64,000 nucleotides of DNA, taken from the NCBI RefSeq assembly GCF_002850745.1, contig NZ_KZ559466.1, forward strand, positions 556,825-620,824, given 5' to 3'. Shown piece by piece: positions 33,773 through 37,928 of this stretch (positions are counted from its first letter, which is position 1; each line of letters opens with the position of its first letter). This stretch comes from Nonomuraea indica. Its GTDB lineage: Bacteria > Actinomycetota > Actinomycetes > Streptosporangiales > Streptosporangiaceae. The position numbers were made by a program, and so were the translations under genes. The notes beneath the pieces were generated by a model, which was given only the letters and a program-made list of their open reading frames with translations, was not told where the DNA came from and did no database searches.

Positions 33773-35788
33773 CTACTCGCCCTTGTCGGCGGCCCTGTCA
33801 ACGCCTCTGTCGGCGCCTCTGTCGGCGCGGTCCAGCCGGGCCAGGTAGGCGTTGTAGCTGTCCAGCTCGCTGTCGCCCCCGCCGCCGCGATCGGCCTTGC
33901 GGTCGTCGCGCCGGGCCTTGCGGTCCTCGTCCTGGTACCACTGCACGGCGATGGCCAGCAGCACCATCAGCGTCGGGATCTCACCGAATCCCCAGGCGAT
34001 CGCGCCGCCGTTCTGCTGCTCCTCCAGCAGCGGGCCGCCCCAGGTGCGGCCGAGCTGGTCGTAGTACACGGAGGCGATGACGCTGCCGGTCATCATGAGC
34101 GCGACGCCGAAGAAGGCGTGGAACGGCATGGTGACGAAAAGGGTCAGCAGTTTGCCCACGTACGGCAGGCGGTGCGGTGCCGGGTCCACTCCGATGATCA
34201 CCCAGAAGAACAGCGTGCCGCTGATGAGGAAGTGCAACGTCATCCAGATGTGGCCGAGGTGCTCCTGCATGGCCTCGGCGTACAGCGGTGTGAAGTACAG
34301 CGCGTACGTCGACGAGATGAAGATCGCGGTCGCGATGGCGGGATGGCCGACGATCCGGGCGAACCGGCTGTGCAGGATGGTCGTCAGCCACTCACGCGGC
34401 CCGCGGTCGCCGCGCCGGGCCGCGGGCTTCAGCGCGCGCAGCGCGAGGGTGACCGGGCCGCCCAGCACCAGCAGGATCGGAACGACCATGGACAAGGTCA
34501 TGTGCTCGATCATGTGGACGTCGAACATGACCTTCGCGTAGCGGGCAAGGCCGCTCTGCGTGGCGAAGACGAGGATGACCACGCCGGCGAACCAGGAGGC
34601 GGTGCGACCCCACGACCAGGCGTCGCCACGGCGCCTGAGTCTGACCACCCCGGCCCCGTAGAGGCCGCCGAGCAGGACGGCGACGACCGCGAAGAACAGG
34701 TCGAGCCACCACAGGGAGAAGATGTTGGCCAGCGAGATCGGCGGCGGCATCGGGTAGCCGAGCAACTCGAAGGCACGGTCGGCGGGGATGCTGGAGGGCG
34801 GCGGCTCCGTGCGCGACAGCGCGACGGCCAGGCCGACGGTGGCGACCATGAGCAGCGCCTCACCGCCCGCCAGCCGGGCGAACGAGCCCGGCGAGCCCTT
34901 CGCCAGGGCGCCGATCGTGCGCTCGCGGTGCCACCAGCCGGCGTAGCCGAGCAGCACGAAGGCGATGATCTTGGCCACGACGAGCACGCCGTAGGCCGAC
35001 GTCCACAGGTCGGAGAACGAGGTCAGCCTGGCCAGCACGCTGAACACGCCCGAGGCGCCCACTCCCACATAGCACCACAGGGCGAGGCGGGAGAAGCGGG
35101 CGGCGGCGATGTCGAGCTGCGGCGCGCCGCGTACGGCGTGCAGCGCCAGCACGACGAGCCCGCCGACCCACAGGGCCAGCGTCACCACGTGCAGCGACAC
35201 GGCGTCGGTGGCGAGCCCGTGGTTGGGCGAGGAGGAGGCGTGCCCGGTCAAGGTGGGCGGCAGCAGCGTCACCACGGAGAACCCCAGCAGCCCGAGCGCC
35301 GCGCCCGCCGTGATGGCGCCGCGTGCGAACAGCGCGATCGCCAGGCCGAACAGGACCACGAGCGTCAGGGCGATGCCCTGCTCGGTCTGCGTGGCATAGC
35401 TGTTGAGGTAGGCGCCGTTGAGCAGCACCTCGGTGACCGGGACGGCGACGGTGTCGGCCACACCGAAGATCAACGTCGCGAACGCCGCGACCGACCAGGC
35501 GAGGGCCGTCCAGGACGCCGCCCGGACGTAGCCGGTCGCGCTCTTGCCGAGCACGCCCTTGTCCCCGGGCAGCAGGATGGCGGCCGTGGTCAGCAGGCCG
35601 ACGGTGAGCATGCCGGCCATGTTCATGCCGAGCCTGGACAGCGGCAGGCCCCAGCGGGTCACCACGCCGGCGTCGGGCAGTCCGGGGATGATGCGGGGGA
35701 AGGCCGCGCCACCGGCGATCATGGCGAGGACCAGGCCGGCGATCGCGGCTCCGGCCGCGGCGAGCGCCAGACGCGCGGCCCTCGTCAC
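33773..35788 (-). CDS. CopD-CtaG fusion: copper import/cytochrome oxidase assembly membrane protein
   Basis: A 671-residue protein with about 14 helices. Residues 1-320 resemble CopD/YcnJ copper-uptake permeases (HASSSPNHGLATDAVSLHVV, ALWVGGLVVLALHAV). Residues 335-625 are a CtaG/caa3-type oxidase assembly domain (FDVHMIEHMTLSMVVPILLVLGG, LHFLISGTLFFW). The charged tail is low-complexity (RADRGADRGVDRAADKGE). The fusion is common in actinobacteria. It is coupled to copC by GTGA overlap, indicating delivery of copper to the respiratory oxidase. Confidence 0.9.
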   Translation of the reverse strand: MTRAARLALAAAGAAIAGLVLAMIAGGAAFPRIIPGLPDAGVVTRWGLPLSRLGMNMAGMLTVGLLTTAAILLPGDKGVLGKSATGYVRAASWTALAWSVAAFATLIFGVADTVAVPVTEVLLNGAYLNSYATQTEQGIALTLVVLFGLAIALFARGAITAGAALGLLGFSVVTLLPPTLTGHASSSPNHGLATDAVSLHVVTLALWVGGLVVLALHAVRGAPQLDIAAARFSRLALWCYVGVGASGVFSVLARLTSFSDLWTSAYGVLVVAKIIAFVLLGYAGWWHRERTIGALAKGSPGSFARLAGGEALLMVATVGLAVALSRTEPPPSSIPADRAFELLGYPMPPPISLANIFSLWWLDLFFAVVAVLLGGLYGAGVVRLRRRGDAWSWGRTASWFAGVVILVFATQSGLARYAKVMFDVHMIEHMTLSMVVPILLVLGGPVTLALRALKPAARRGDRGPREWLTTILHSRFARIVGHPAIATAIFISSTYALYFTPLYAEAMQEHLGHIWMTLHFLISGTLFFWVIIGVDPAPHRLPYVGKLLTLFVTMPFHAFFGVALMMTGSVIASVYYDQLGRTWGGPLLEEQQNGGAIAWGFGEIPTLMVLLAIAVQWYQDEDRKARRDDRKADRGGGGDSELDSYNAYLARLDRADRGADRGVDRAADKGE

Positions 35789-36393
35789 GTACGCTTCTTT
35801 CGCACGCTGAGCACGAGGCCGATGCCGATGCCCGCCAGGGCGCCGACGACCACGAGCAGCCAGACGGGGAAACTCGCTCCGGCGCCCGACTCCTGCGCCG
35901 CCGGTGCCGTCGCGGCGGCCGTACCACCCTGCGCAGCCGGCTCGCCGGTGGCGGGTTCGCCGGTGGGCTCAGGGCTGGGCGGCGCGCTGTCCACGGCGGA
36001 CGAGGTTTCCGACGGAGCCGCGGACGGGGTGGCGCCCTTGACGGTGAACGGGATCTCGCCCTCGATCGGGTGACCGTCGGAGGAGACGACCCGGTAGGCG
36101 ATGGTGTACCTGCCGTCGGGCAGCGCGCCCTTGAGCTCCTGCGTCACCTCACGCTCGTCGAGCTCCGGCTTGCCGAGCTGGTGCTGCTCGTCTCCGGGGC
36201 CGTGCACGACCACGACCGGCATGCGGACCCGGGAGGTGAACTCCAGGGTCACCTTCTCCACGGTCTTGACGGTGGAGCCCTTGGCCGGGTCGCTGCTCTT
36301 GAGCGAGTCGTGTGCGAGGGCCGGCCCGGCCGTGCCGAGCAGGAACAGGGCGGCGAGGATCGCGGTGATCGCCGCGAGAGGGGATCTCTTCAT
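35785..36393 (-). CDS. copC: CopC-type extracellular copper-binding protein
   Basis: 202 residues: signal peptide ending GPALA-H (about 27), so the mature protein begins with the conserved copper-ligand His. An immunoglobulin-like CopC domain spans 28-125 (LKSSDPAKGSTVKTVEKVTLEF, SSDGHPIEGEIPFTV). A Pro/Ser/Thr/Ala-rich stalk follows, then a C-terminal membrane anchor (VWLLVVVGALAGIGIGLVLSV) and an RKKRT tail. It hands copper to CopD-CtaG, with which it overlaps by 4 bp. ATG 36393. Confidence 0.9.
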   Translation of the reverse strand: MKRSPLAAITAILAALFLLGTAGPALAHDSLKSSDPAKGSTVKTVEKVTLEFTSRVRMPVVVVHGPGDEQHQLGKPELDEREVTQELKGALPDGRYTIAYRVVSSDGHPIEGEIPFTVKGATPSAAPSETSSAVDSAPPSPEPTGEPATGEPAAQGGTAAATAPAAQESGAGASFPVWLLVVVGALAGIGIGLVLSVRKKRT

Positions 36394-36437: not shown

Positions 36438-37721
36438 CTACAGCCCCACGCAGGCGAGCGCGCGCTGGTAGGCCTCCGCGGCGCCGTGGGCGTCGCCGAG
36501 CTGCTCCATCGTCTCGGCCGCGGCGTACCAGGTGCCGGCGACGCGGCGGGAGTCGGGCAGCGGGGCCAGCCAGTCGCGTACGGCGGCGAGCTCGTTCTCG
36601 GCCTCGGCCGTCCTGCCGAGACCGCCGTAGGCGCGGCTCAGCAGCAGGTGGGCCTCGGCCTCCAAGGCGCGGGCGGTGGTGGGCAGCATCGCCTGGCCGG
36701 CTCGGCCGTGGGCGACGGCCTGCTCCAGGTTTCCGGCGGTGATCTCGGCGCGGGCCAGTTCGACCTGCGTGTTGGCCCGGTCGAGCGTGCTCGCGGAGGT
36801 CTGCGCGAGCTCCTCGTCGGCGCGCAGCAGCAGGCCGCGCACCTCGTCGACGGCGTCGGAGCGGATGCGCAGCTTCAGCGTGGCGTACGCCACGCGGGTG
36901 CGGGCCAGGCTGCGGGGCGTGCCGGTCTCGGACTGGATGGCCAGGGCGCGCTGGGCGAAGGCCAGCGACTCCTCGCCGTGACCGGTGCTCTCGGCCACGA
37001 TCGCGGCGTTCCAGCAGGCGGCGACGATGGCGCGGGGTGTGCCGAGCATGTCGGCGGCGTTGAGCAGCTCGGCGGCGAACTGGCGGGCGCGCAGCAGGTC
37101 GCCGCTGTGGAGGTAGGCCGTCAGCAGGGTGGCGCCCAGCTCGACCATGCCGTCGTTCCAGGCGGGGCGGGCCGATTCGCCGAGGACCGCCTCGCCCACC
37201 TGGATGGCCTCGCTCAGCCGGTCGCTCTGCCGGTAGACCCGGCACAGCACGATGGCGATCTCGATGCGGCGGTCGAGGCTCACCTCCTCGTCCTGCAGCC
37301 GGCGGAGCATGGAGATCGCCTGGTCGAGCTCTCCGCACGCCTCCAGAGCCAGCGCGAGCCCGTACTGCGTGTCCTGACGCAGCGAGGTGAGACCTGCCAG
37401 GTTGTGGTTGGCCAGCAGCTCGGCGAACCGGGTGCGAGCCTCCTGCACCTCACCGTTCTCGAGGGCCATCCTCGCGTAGCCGAGCGAGAGCTCGATGTCC
37501 TCCATCTGCTCGGCCGTCACACCGTTGAGGAGGTAGGACAGCGAGCAGTCGAGCTTCTGCGCCAGAAGTTCGAGAACGGCCGGAGTCGGGGTACGCTTAC
37601 CACTCTCGATCAAGGAGACGTAGCTGTCCGACAGCTCCGGGTGCGCGAGTTGTGCCTGCGACAGGCCCCGTTGCCGCCGCACGGTCTTGATGCGGAGTCC
37701 GATCAGGTCAGATGTGGTCAC
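36438..37721 (-). CDS. XRE-TPR regulator, candidate peptide-pheromone receptor
   Basis: A 427-residue cytosolic regulator. An XRE helix-turn-helix spans about 5-65 (LRIKTVRRQRGLSQAQLA, SDSYVSLIESGKRTPTPAVL). The remainder is about eight TPR-like helical pairs (for example LALALEACGELDQAISMLRR, DRLSEAIQVGEAVLGE, TAEAENELAAVRDWL). This is the architecture of RRNPP-type receptors that bind re-imported signal peptides, though many actinobacterial XRE-TPR proteins have no known ligand. The GTG start at 37721 follows GGGAGCGGGA. A 49-codon secreted-peptide gene lies 57 bp away on the opposite strand. Confidence 0.8.
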   Translation of the reverse strand: MTTSDLIGLRIKTVRRQRGLSQAQLAHPELSDSYVSLIESGKRTPTPAVLELLAQKLDCSLSYLLNGVTAEQMEDIELSLGYARMALENGEVQEARTRFAELLANHNLAGLTSLRQDTQYGLALALEACGELDQAISMLRRLQDEEVSLDRRIEIAIVLCRVYRQSDRLSEAIQVGEAVLGESARPAWNDGMVELGATLLTAYLHSGDLLRARQFAAELLNAADMLGTPRAIVAACWNAAIVAESTGHGEESLAFAQRALAIQSETGTPRSLARTRVAYATLKLRIRSDAVDEVRGLLLRADEELAQTSASTLDRANTQVELARAEITAGNLEQAVAHGRAGQAMLPTTARALEAEAHLLLSRAYGGLGRTAEAENELAAVRDWLAPLPDSRRVAGTWYAAAETMEQLGDAHGAAEAYQRALACVGL

Positions 37722-37778
37722 AGGTCCCGCTCCCTGAGATGATGATGGCCGAGCAACCCATAGGCGAGGGAGAACCCC

Positions 37779-37928
37779 ATGCGCACGCGCATTGCCCTGT
37801 CCGTACTCGTGGCGTTGGTGACGGCAGGTGTCACCGTCGCAGGCAATGCTACGGCGGCAGCAGCCGACTCGTCTGCATCCGCGTCGAATGTCATCATGGC
37901 CACCTACGAGGTTCCCAGCTGCTGCTGA
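37779..37928 (+). CDS. Small secreted peptide, candidate signal for the XRE-TPR regulator
   Basis: 49 codons, ATG to TGA, with an excellent GAGGGAGA site 5-6 bp upstream. It starts MRTRIALSVLVALVTAGV, a basic N-region and hydrophobic core, and continues through GNATAAAA, a probable signal-peptidase region near residue 28. The mature part is about 20 residues ending VIMATYEVPSCC, with a terminal Cys-Cys. Codons are richer in A/T at third positions (GCA, GTA, TCT, GCT, GTT) than in neighbours. It is divergent from the XRE-TPR gene, as in pheromone/receptor cassettes. No homologue is recognised. It is shorter than usual gene-calling limits. Confidence 0.65.
   Translation: MRTRIALSVLVALVTAGVTVAGNATAAAADSSASASNVIMATYEVPSCC

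Follow-up and report, generated by a model that had tools for sequence, protein, structure and literature searches.

Does the 64,000-nucleotide stretch of Nonomuraea indica DNA analysed here (the window) encode a peptide pheromone together with its receptor? The question is raised by a regulator gene that combines an XRE-type helix-turn-helix (HTH) domain with tetratricopeptide repeats (TPR) and, divergent from it, a frame of 49 codons whose product resembles a small secreted peptide. The original prediction had read the two as an actinobacterial analogue of the RRNPP systems, and both genes lie where it had placed them: the regulator frame opening at its GTG codon matches HTH_3 (E 3.6e-11) and several TPR families in Pfam, and the ATG–TGA frame on the opposite strand, with 57 bp between the two start codons, follows a strong Shine-Dalgarno sequence. 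Its remark on A/T-richer codons holds as well, because the small open reading frame (ORF) has a GC content of 63.3% (72% at third codon positions, GC3), compared with 71.8% (GC3 93%) in the receptor gene. The 49-aa peptide has zero matches in Pfam or NCBIfam at E values up to 1.

We consider it about 75% probable, judging from sequence, that the two genes constitute a secreted, processed and re-imported peptide and a receptor that reads it in its TPR groove, after the fashion of PlcR-PapR, with a C-terminal Cys-Cys as the code. The regulator is probably an intracellular peptide receptor; the last 5–8 residues of the tail DSSASASNVIMATYEVPSCC would be the likely pheromone, and the 57-bp intergenic region is the probable place of autoregulation. 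The analogy with RRNPP is supported by the conservation of the pair, the pattern of selection and the changes in the inner helices of the receptor. The system is real, conserved and much wider than could be seen from the window alone.

Conservation of the pair in close relatives

When 59 relatives were searched, the receptor (58–100% identity) adjoined a match to the 49-aa frame in all 30 best-matching loci. From a scan of the genome collection the best 80 of 121 loci were kept (the 80 loci), which come from Streptosporangiaceae genera, three of them as metagenome-assembled genomes, one of which is labelled simply Actinobacteria. The small frame stands beside the receptor in every one of them and ends in Cys-Cys-stop in 75; the remaining five, all from Streptosporangium or Planomonospora, keep the leader and end in GWNHPG, GWNHPD (two), SWSYPD or LNNAE. 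We defined as tier 1 the 111 distinct receptors scoring >600 bits against the first receptor profile, and accepted as their partner a divergent, hydrophobic frame of 38–100 aa starting 30–80 nt from the receptor. Such a frame is present beside all 111, with Cys-Cys in 89 cases and without it in 22, a share that is biased because Streptosporangium relatives were sought deliberately. The first seven residues carry a net charge of at least +1 in 110 of these precursors, and a permissive AxA-type site is found in all 111, a count made on alanine-rich leaders that is no test of cleavage. The tails vary: the 111 precursors have 97 distinct last heptamers, and 16 different residues precede Cys-Cys in the 89 that end in it.

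Of 4,422 ORFs of 30–110 aa in the 80 loci, 78 end in Cys-Cys; 72 of these lie beside the receptor, five are unrelated and one belongs to a second pair. The latter occurs in Spongiactinospora sp. TRM90649 (L081), in which two nearby receptor-peptide pairs have the differing tails KDIFCC and DAPRCC. Genes for CopC, CopD/CtaG, a methionine-aminopeptidase-like and a xanthine-dehydrogenase-like protein surround the receptor in most of the 80 loci, so that the pair looks vertically inherited within the Streptosporangiaceae, the window's own family.

Selection on the precursor and the receptor

Nonsynonymous and synonymous differences per site (pN/pS, Nei-Gojobori counts) were compared over 36 disjoint pairs of close receptors with 80–99% identity. 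Within the precursor, pN/pS amounts to 0.49 in the leader, 0.83 in the tail and 0.09 in the last two codons; within the receptor, the HTH has a value of 0.02 and the TPR region one of 0.29. The final two codons changed synonymously only in the 29 Cys-Cys pairs, and the few nonsynonymous changes there all come from the seven Streptosporangium-type pairs. Precursor length differs by whole codons. By these counts purifying selection acts strongly on the last two codons, the tail before them is nearly free and the DNA-binding domain is frozen, and this coding-type selection is the basis on which we regard the small frame as probably translated. A lack of conservation beside orthologous regulators would have refuted the original prediction, and this check left it standing: start, Shine-Dalgarno, leader and C-terminus are kept beside close receptors, with the pair recurring beside distant ones. 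The selection pattern is that expected of a pheromone precursor. The features of the locus are collected in Table 1.

Table 1. Features of the receptor-peptide locus in window coordinates
Feature	Position	Strand	Remarks
XRE-HTH and TPR regulator	36438..37721	-	GTG start 37721, stop 36438; 427 aa; Pfam HTH_3 and TPR matches
Candidate pheromone precursor gene, 49 codons	37779..37928	+	ATG 37779 to TGA 37928; 49 aa, MRTRIALSVLVALVTAGVTVAGNATAAAADSSASASNVIMATYEVPSCC
Signal-peptide-like leader, residues 1-29	37779..37865	+	Basic N-terminus, hydrophobic core, permissive AxA-type site; putative cleavage
Predicted exported tail DSSASASNVIMATYEVPSCC	37866..37925	+	pN/pS 0.83 vs 0.49 in leader (36 close pairs)
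Cys-Cys codons preceding stop	37920..37925	+	pN/pS 0.09; present in 89/111 tier-1 precursors
Shine-Dalgarno GAGGGAGA of precursor gene	37766..37773	+	Most Nonomuraea loci have CGAGGGAG; other genera have GGAG or similar forms
Shared promoter region, 57 bp	37722..37778	.	Conserved block (in the window: CTCCCTGAGATGATG) in the intergenic alignment of tier-1 loci
CopC and fused CopD/CtaG protein	33773-36393	-	Downstream of receptor, same strand; place kept in nearly all 80 loci

Receptor residues that change with the peptide

The Streptosporangium and Planomonospora receptors whose peptide lacks Cys-Cys form one clade in the tier-1 tree. Among 159 alignment columns conserved in at least 90% of the tier-1 Cys-Cys receptors, seven are kept by 35% or less of this clade (176, 194, 198, 230, 233, 234 and 238), and six of the seven fall in helices A4 and A5. 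These two helices hold 17 of the 159 conserved columns, giving a hypergeometric P of 4e-6 for the enrichment if columns are taken as independent. The 35% limit was set after the clade comparison had been seen; with the 15% limit, which was chosen first, columns 176, 198, 234 and 238 are obtained, three of the four lying in A4/A5. Helices were assigned as A or B from the helix list of the AlphaFold2 model of the receptor, and TPR A-helices line the inner face of the superhelix.

Over all families, 114 of 138 Cys-Cys receptors have T198, A/S234 and N238 together, compared with 0 of 30 receptors with other peptides and 11 of 70 without a candidate. Within the latter group of 70, which lack a divergent candidate, a convergent Cys-Cys ORF accompanies 8 of the 17 receptors with W237 and N238, compared with 1 of the 53 without them, three of the 53 being counted as misses as their ORF belongs to a neighbouring receptor. 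The signature was compared with the peptides after its derivation from other rows.

Distant receptors and their peptides

Wider searches, made in overlapping groups, covered 200 genomes at the level of the order, two sets of 296 and 394 at class level and two of 198 and 396 at phylum level, with loci taken from the best matches only in two of the searches. The resulting 238 distinct receptors represent chosen regions and no random sample. They comprise 89 tier-1 receptors with a Cys-Cys peptide, 49 Cys-Cys receptors below tier 1, 22 tier-1 receptors without Cys-Cys, eight with peptides ending in an aromatic-Pro motif and 70 first labelled as having no candidate, two of which have less than 400 nt of upstream sequence and nine of which were then found to have a convergent Cys-Cys ORF. 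A scan for hydrophobic-leader Cys-Cys ORFs within 400 nt, in any orientation, was positive for 149 of the 238, three of which share the ORF with a neighbouring receptor; among 253 control ORFs of at least 400 aa from the 80 loci (mechanical ORFs, not all of them genes) the count was zero.

The most distant receptors in the diverse alignment have 29% identity, and pairs from other families, at 29–37%, are arranged divergently or convergently. Many of the distant receptors have a divergent Cys-Cys ORF; examples of its tail in other families are PNWPTMCC, ASPGDFCC, DHPPTCC, GTWCC, GPPFCC, GPTWCC, NWPKCC and GGIWCC, and within the window's own family RVHCC. Among 22 receptors from other classes of the phylum that lie outside family f20, drawn from 30 best-match loci many of which belong to an earlier set, 15 have a divergent hydrophobic ORF ending in aromatic-Pro and in some cases Cys-Cys (PWPPCC, PWPHCC, PFPGCCG, GYPWPK, GFPWPK, KWPWG, NWPHH), compared with 4 of 1,025 control ORFs in a similar, not identical, scan. 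Deep-branching precursors of about 22–36 aa consist of a hydrophobic stretch and a very short tail.

Family f20 (L276, L277, L313-L315, L365-L367, L369, L370) comprises deep-branch receptors with a divergent hydrophobic small ORF that often carries an AAN-x-GP-like block. None of the eight f20 receptors among the same 30 best-match loci has an aromatic-Pro or Cys-Cys motif; several of the f20 small ORFs are divergent and hydrophobic, none ends in Cys-Cys, and they may be a further variant of the signal. No Cys-Cys ORF was seen beside a paralogue in the window's own genome (G000:C7:269688, E 1.5e-56) and its MPSQG/MPGPG relatives (8 of the 70 without a candidate), and the scan found no peptide for the group with an N-terminus like MDRETLGQRIRALRI (22 of the 70).

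Some tails are repetitive. In a Streptosporangium-type genome (L286, G221:C1:4972500-4976800) the precursor tail carries WNGPD four times, which suggests that a peptide of some six residues is processed and released, and a second precursor (L287) has the related GWTYPE and AWTYAE. Further Streptosporangium-type loci (L143, L144, L145, L147) hold receptor paralogues with divergent precursors ending in GGGLCCYE or SGGKCCYE; in L143, L145 and L147 the precursor is placed between two receptor paralogues. Family f27 (L308-L311) comprises receptor-peptide pairs in genomes of 1.6–2.2 Mb, with 1–5 residues following Cys-Cys in three of the four.

Sixteen records of the plasmid collection matched, one of them 11.85 Mb long, and six of the 14 Streptomyces records were examined. 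On pSMg1-1, an annotated 71-aa hypothetical protein ending in KDIPLCC (WP_008741297.1) is encoded after receptor WP_008741298.1 in the same direction, an arrangement repeated on pADI95-16a (WP_123083198.1); in Streptomyces sp. NBC_01707 an annotated protein with the end GDLPLCC (WP_331750220.1) lies about 1.9 kb downstream of the receptor. With a scan prone to false negatives, no Cys-Cys ORF was found within about 4 kb on the NBC_00334 and NBC_01387 plasmids, whose receptors lack T198 and A234, nor in NBC_01176, where the signature residues are present. On pSMg1-1 (L337, 5851-6063) and pADI95-16a (L343, 5831-6043), another short annotated protein, which has a hydrophobic leader and ends in FDPREKM, is located between the Cys-Cys peptide and a BTAD-domain regulator. 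A truncated receptor with an N-terminus like that of family f28 receptors occurs on an unverified fecal scaffold labelled 'Bacteriophage sp.' (L342, MT836207.1), which is probably bacterial sequence. Apart from this scaffold, all matches are from Actinomycetota; the searches covered that phylum and the named collections, Bacillota genomes lying outside them. A phage or plasmid origin of the pair is not supported.

Fold and kinship of the receptor

The AlphaFold2 model of the receptor, built from 62 sequences with a mean pLDDT of 92, consists of the HTH and about nine TPR-like helix pairs. It matches many TPR proteins, the best of which are eukaryotic or designed; the bacterial ones include NprR (5dbk, Z 23.1), Rap (4gyo, Z 23.0) and MalT (Z 22.5), and PlcR bound to peptide and DNA is the second match in Foldseek (3u3w, E 3.3e-7). 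Sequence-profile searches of the PDB rank PlcR first among HTH-TPR proteins, with E values of 1.1e-7 (profile A1) and 1.6e-15 (profile A3), the match spanning mainly the HTH and the first TPRs; designed TPR proteins rank above it in both cases, and LGN also does so with A1.

In NCBIfam the receptor reached no family's curated cut-off. Weak similarity at the level of the TPR exists to the NsdA family and to the FxSxx-COOH TPR proteins, with scores far below the cut-offs: for NsdA (NF053720) the window receptor scored 19.2 of 75 bits and the highest-scoring receptor 38.5 of 75, and NF040586 (FxSxx-COOH TPR) did not figure among the window receptor's 15 listed families (E up to 1) and gave 26.7 of 300 bits for a receptor of the MDRETLGQRIRALRI-type N-terminus group.

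Proposed mechanism and alternatives

In the mechanism that we propose, the small gene would be expressed as a precursor with an export leader, export being read as a sequence feature. After export, the tail would be cut to a short C-terminal peptide, here one ending in Cys-Cys, and oligopeptide permeases would re-import it; the window's own genome contains 18 matches to the peptide-binding family SBP_bac_5. Considering the residues that change with the peptide, binding may take place on the inner face of the TPR superhelix near helices A4-A5, and it would alter how the XRE domain binds DNA, both in the shared 57-bp promoter region and at further targets. Diversification of the tail between species would yield species-specific signals, with the DNA-binding half staying fixed. 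The Cys-Cys may act as thiols, as an extracellular vicinal disulfide or as a metal site. Of the two modifications suggested originally, a disulfide at the C-terminal Cys-Cys is possible, and lipid modification found no support in this analysis.

A broader reading, which we put forward tentatively and at distinctly less than even odds, is that the pair belongs to an old peptide language of the whole phylum Actinomycetota, in which XRE-TPR receptors are coupled to tiny secreted peptides with a C-terminal aromatic-Pro and/or Cys-Cys code. The receptor would then read the vicinal cysteines as thiols, as an eight-membered vicinal disulfide or as a metal site, making the identity of the signal redox-dependent outside versus inside the cell.

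Several observations weigh against the proposal that the receptor reads a re-imported Cys-Cys peptide. Covariation rests on few independent cases, because the absence of Cys-Cys in Streptosporangium and Planomonospora is one event in the tree, and the convergent Cys-Cys cases are confined to few families. At least one of T198, A/S234 and N238 is missing from 24 of the 138 Cys-Cys receptors; position 238 is M or I in six Nonomuraea receptors, and all three signature residues are missing from the four receptors of the small-genome family f27, although Cys-Cys peptides accompany all of these. Clades that keep Cys-Cys also lose some inner-helix residues, two of them in A5, although in these clades the losses are spread across the HTH, the loops and both inner and outer helices, no clade losing more than one residue in A5. 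After the rescan, 61 of the 238 distinct receptors are without any candidate peptide, as found by an ORF scan with false negatives, which passed over the annotated pSMg1-1 peptide owing to the late start of its leader. The ligands of TPR domains are diverse, and unrelated TPR proteins abound in the fold lists, with PlcR absent from the 50 Z-scored matches listed; as unrelated TPR proteins score equally, the comparison argues for a peptide-binding fold and not for a function. Finally, it is from sequence that we infer export, cleavage, import, binding and regulation.

Among the alternatives, the one with the most weight, although improbable, is that the small protein stays in the membrane and is neither exported nor re-imported, its anchor and tail tethering or inhibiting the regulator, or the nascent peptide being sensed in the producer. 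It would suit the deep-branching relatives, in which cleavage is not obvious because the products have only about 22–36 aa and a very short tail. By the positive-inside rule, however, the basic N-terminus places the tail outside, and the tandem pheromone-like repeats in some tails make sense for a released, processed peptide; the permissive AxA-type sites of the tier-1 precursors also speak against retention, a weak point because the leaders are rich in alanine. Somewhat less likely again is metal or redox sensing, in which a secreted Cys-Cys peptide binds copper or reports the redox state and the XRE-TPR protein controls CopC and CopD/CtaG. These genes follow the receptor on the same strand and adjoin it in almost every one of the 80 loci, and Cys-Cys can bind soft metals. 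Yet only 4 of 16 distant loci, each 4.6–20 kb long, have a CopD/CtaG match, all from the window's own family, neighbours differ in five loci of other families, and Streptosporangium loci (L098, L099, L107) keep CopC and CtaG, the 22 peptides without Cys-Cys being free of cysteine. We therefore rejected a copper role of the pair: CopC-CopD/CtaG is a case of family synteny that was not found in the other families sampled.

It is very unlikely that the frame encodes the precursor of an antimicrobial or metal-binding ribosomally synthesized and post-translationally modified peptide lying next to the regulator by chance. A small precursor with a leader and a cysteine-rich end would look much like this one, but the families looked at share no neighbour (five loci judged by eye, their ORFs not domain-searched), apart from the final two codons the tail is nearly free, and receptor residues change along with it. 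Least credible of all is that the small frame is a conserved untranslated or regulatory stretch, such as a 5' leader or an operator overlap, as the short intergenic distance and the conserved promoter block could suggest; against this stand the segment-specific selection of codon type, the synonymous changes in the Cys codons and the length changes by whole codons, and in other families the frame is also convergent to the receptor or downstream of it.

Relation to known systems and implications

The proposed receptor-peptide pair resembles RRNPP/RRNPPA systems such as PlcR-PapR and Rgg-SHP in combining an XRE-type HTH and a TPR superhelix in the receptor with a small neighbouring gene whose product is a precursor that carries a leader and evolves fast at its C-terminus; the gene order of Rgg-SHP is divergent, as in this pair. 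It differs in belonging to another phylum, in the receptor, which has mostly 427–470 aa and its own profile, in the Cys-Cys or aromatic-Pro C-terminus, where RRNPP peptides have linear codes, and in the conserved chromosomal context within the Streptosporangiaceae. Rap, unlike the present receptor, has no HTH. Rap-Phr and arbitrium AimR-AimP are likewise TPR receptors of secreted, re-imported short peptides (PMC11343458 for Rap-Phr), the route that we suppose by analogy for the present pair, and repeated pheromone units occur in RRNPP precursors such as Phr (PMC11343458). In contrast to both systems, the present loci show little sign of mobile elements, with the unverified phage-labelled scaffold and the 16 plasmid-collection records as the instances seen.

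As far as sequence tells, the system works like RRNPP, with a C-terminal code that is new to us. Occurrence in Bacillota being a matter of distribution, not mechanism, we keep to 'works like'; a known RRNPP subfamily is not claimed, and we could recognise none of the described subfamilies in the receptor. We know of no cytoplasmic peptide-pheromone family outside Bacillota, and a redox-read, phylum-wide family would, if true, be the first. The open-access literature, to which the search was confined, subscription papers and preprints being outside its scope, yielded among the papers listed no description of XRE-TPR receptors with secreted peptides in Actinomycetota. Signals of this phylum are typically enzyme-made small molecules and peptide signals those of Bacillota according to a 2023 paper, whose survey covered Firmicutes and viruses only (PMC10075063). 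RRNPPA is treated as a Firmicutes family in PMC9765709, which contains none of the actinobacterial terms looked for, and for Streptomyces butyrolactones are mentioned in a review of 2026 (PMC13220807).

If the proposed mechanism holds, quorum sensing by peptides in the manner of PlcR-PapR would be widespread in the phylum that makes antibiotics, and actinobacteria would use peptide signals besides the known small molecules. To our knowledge, no gene has been assigned to the signal imported by the oligopeptide permease BldK of Streptomyces coelicolor. That signal is extracellular and controls development (PMC11303876, PMC10067837). Should the phylum-wide reading be true, the peptides would be candidates for the signals that actinobacterial oligopeptide permeases import and that control development and antibiotic production. 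The pair would provide synthetic peptides and a route to the genes that they switch, perhaps those for development and silent antibiotic clusters.

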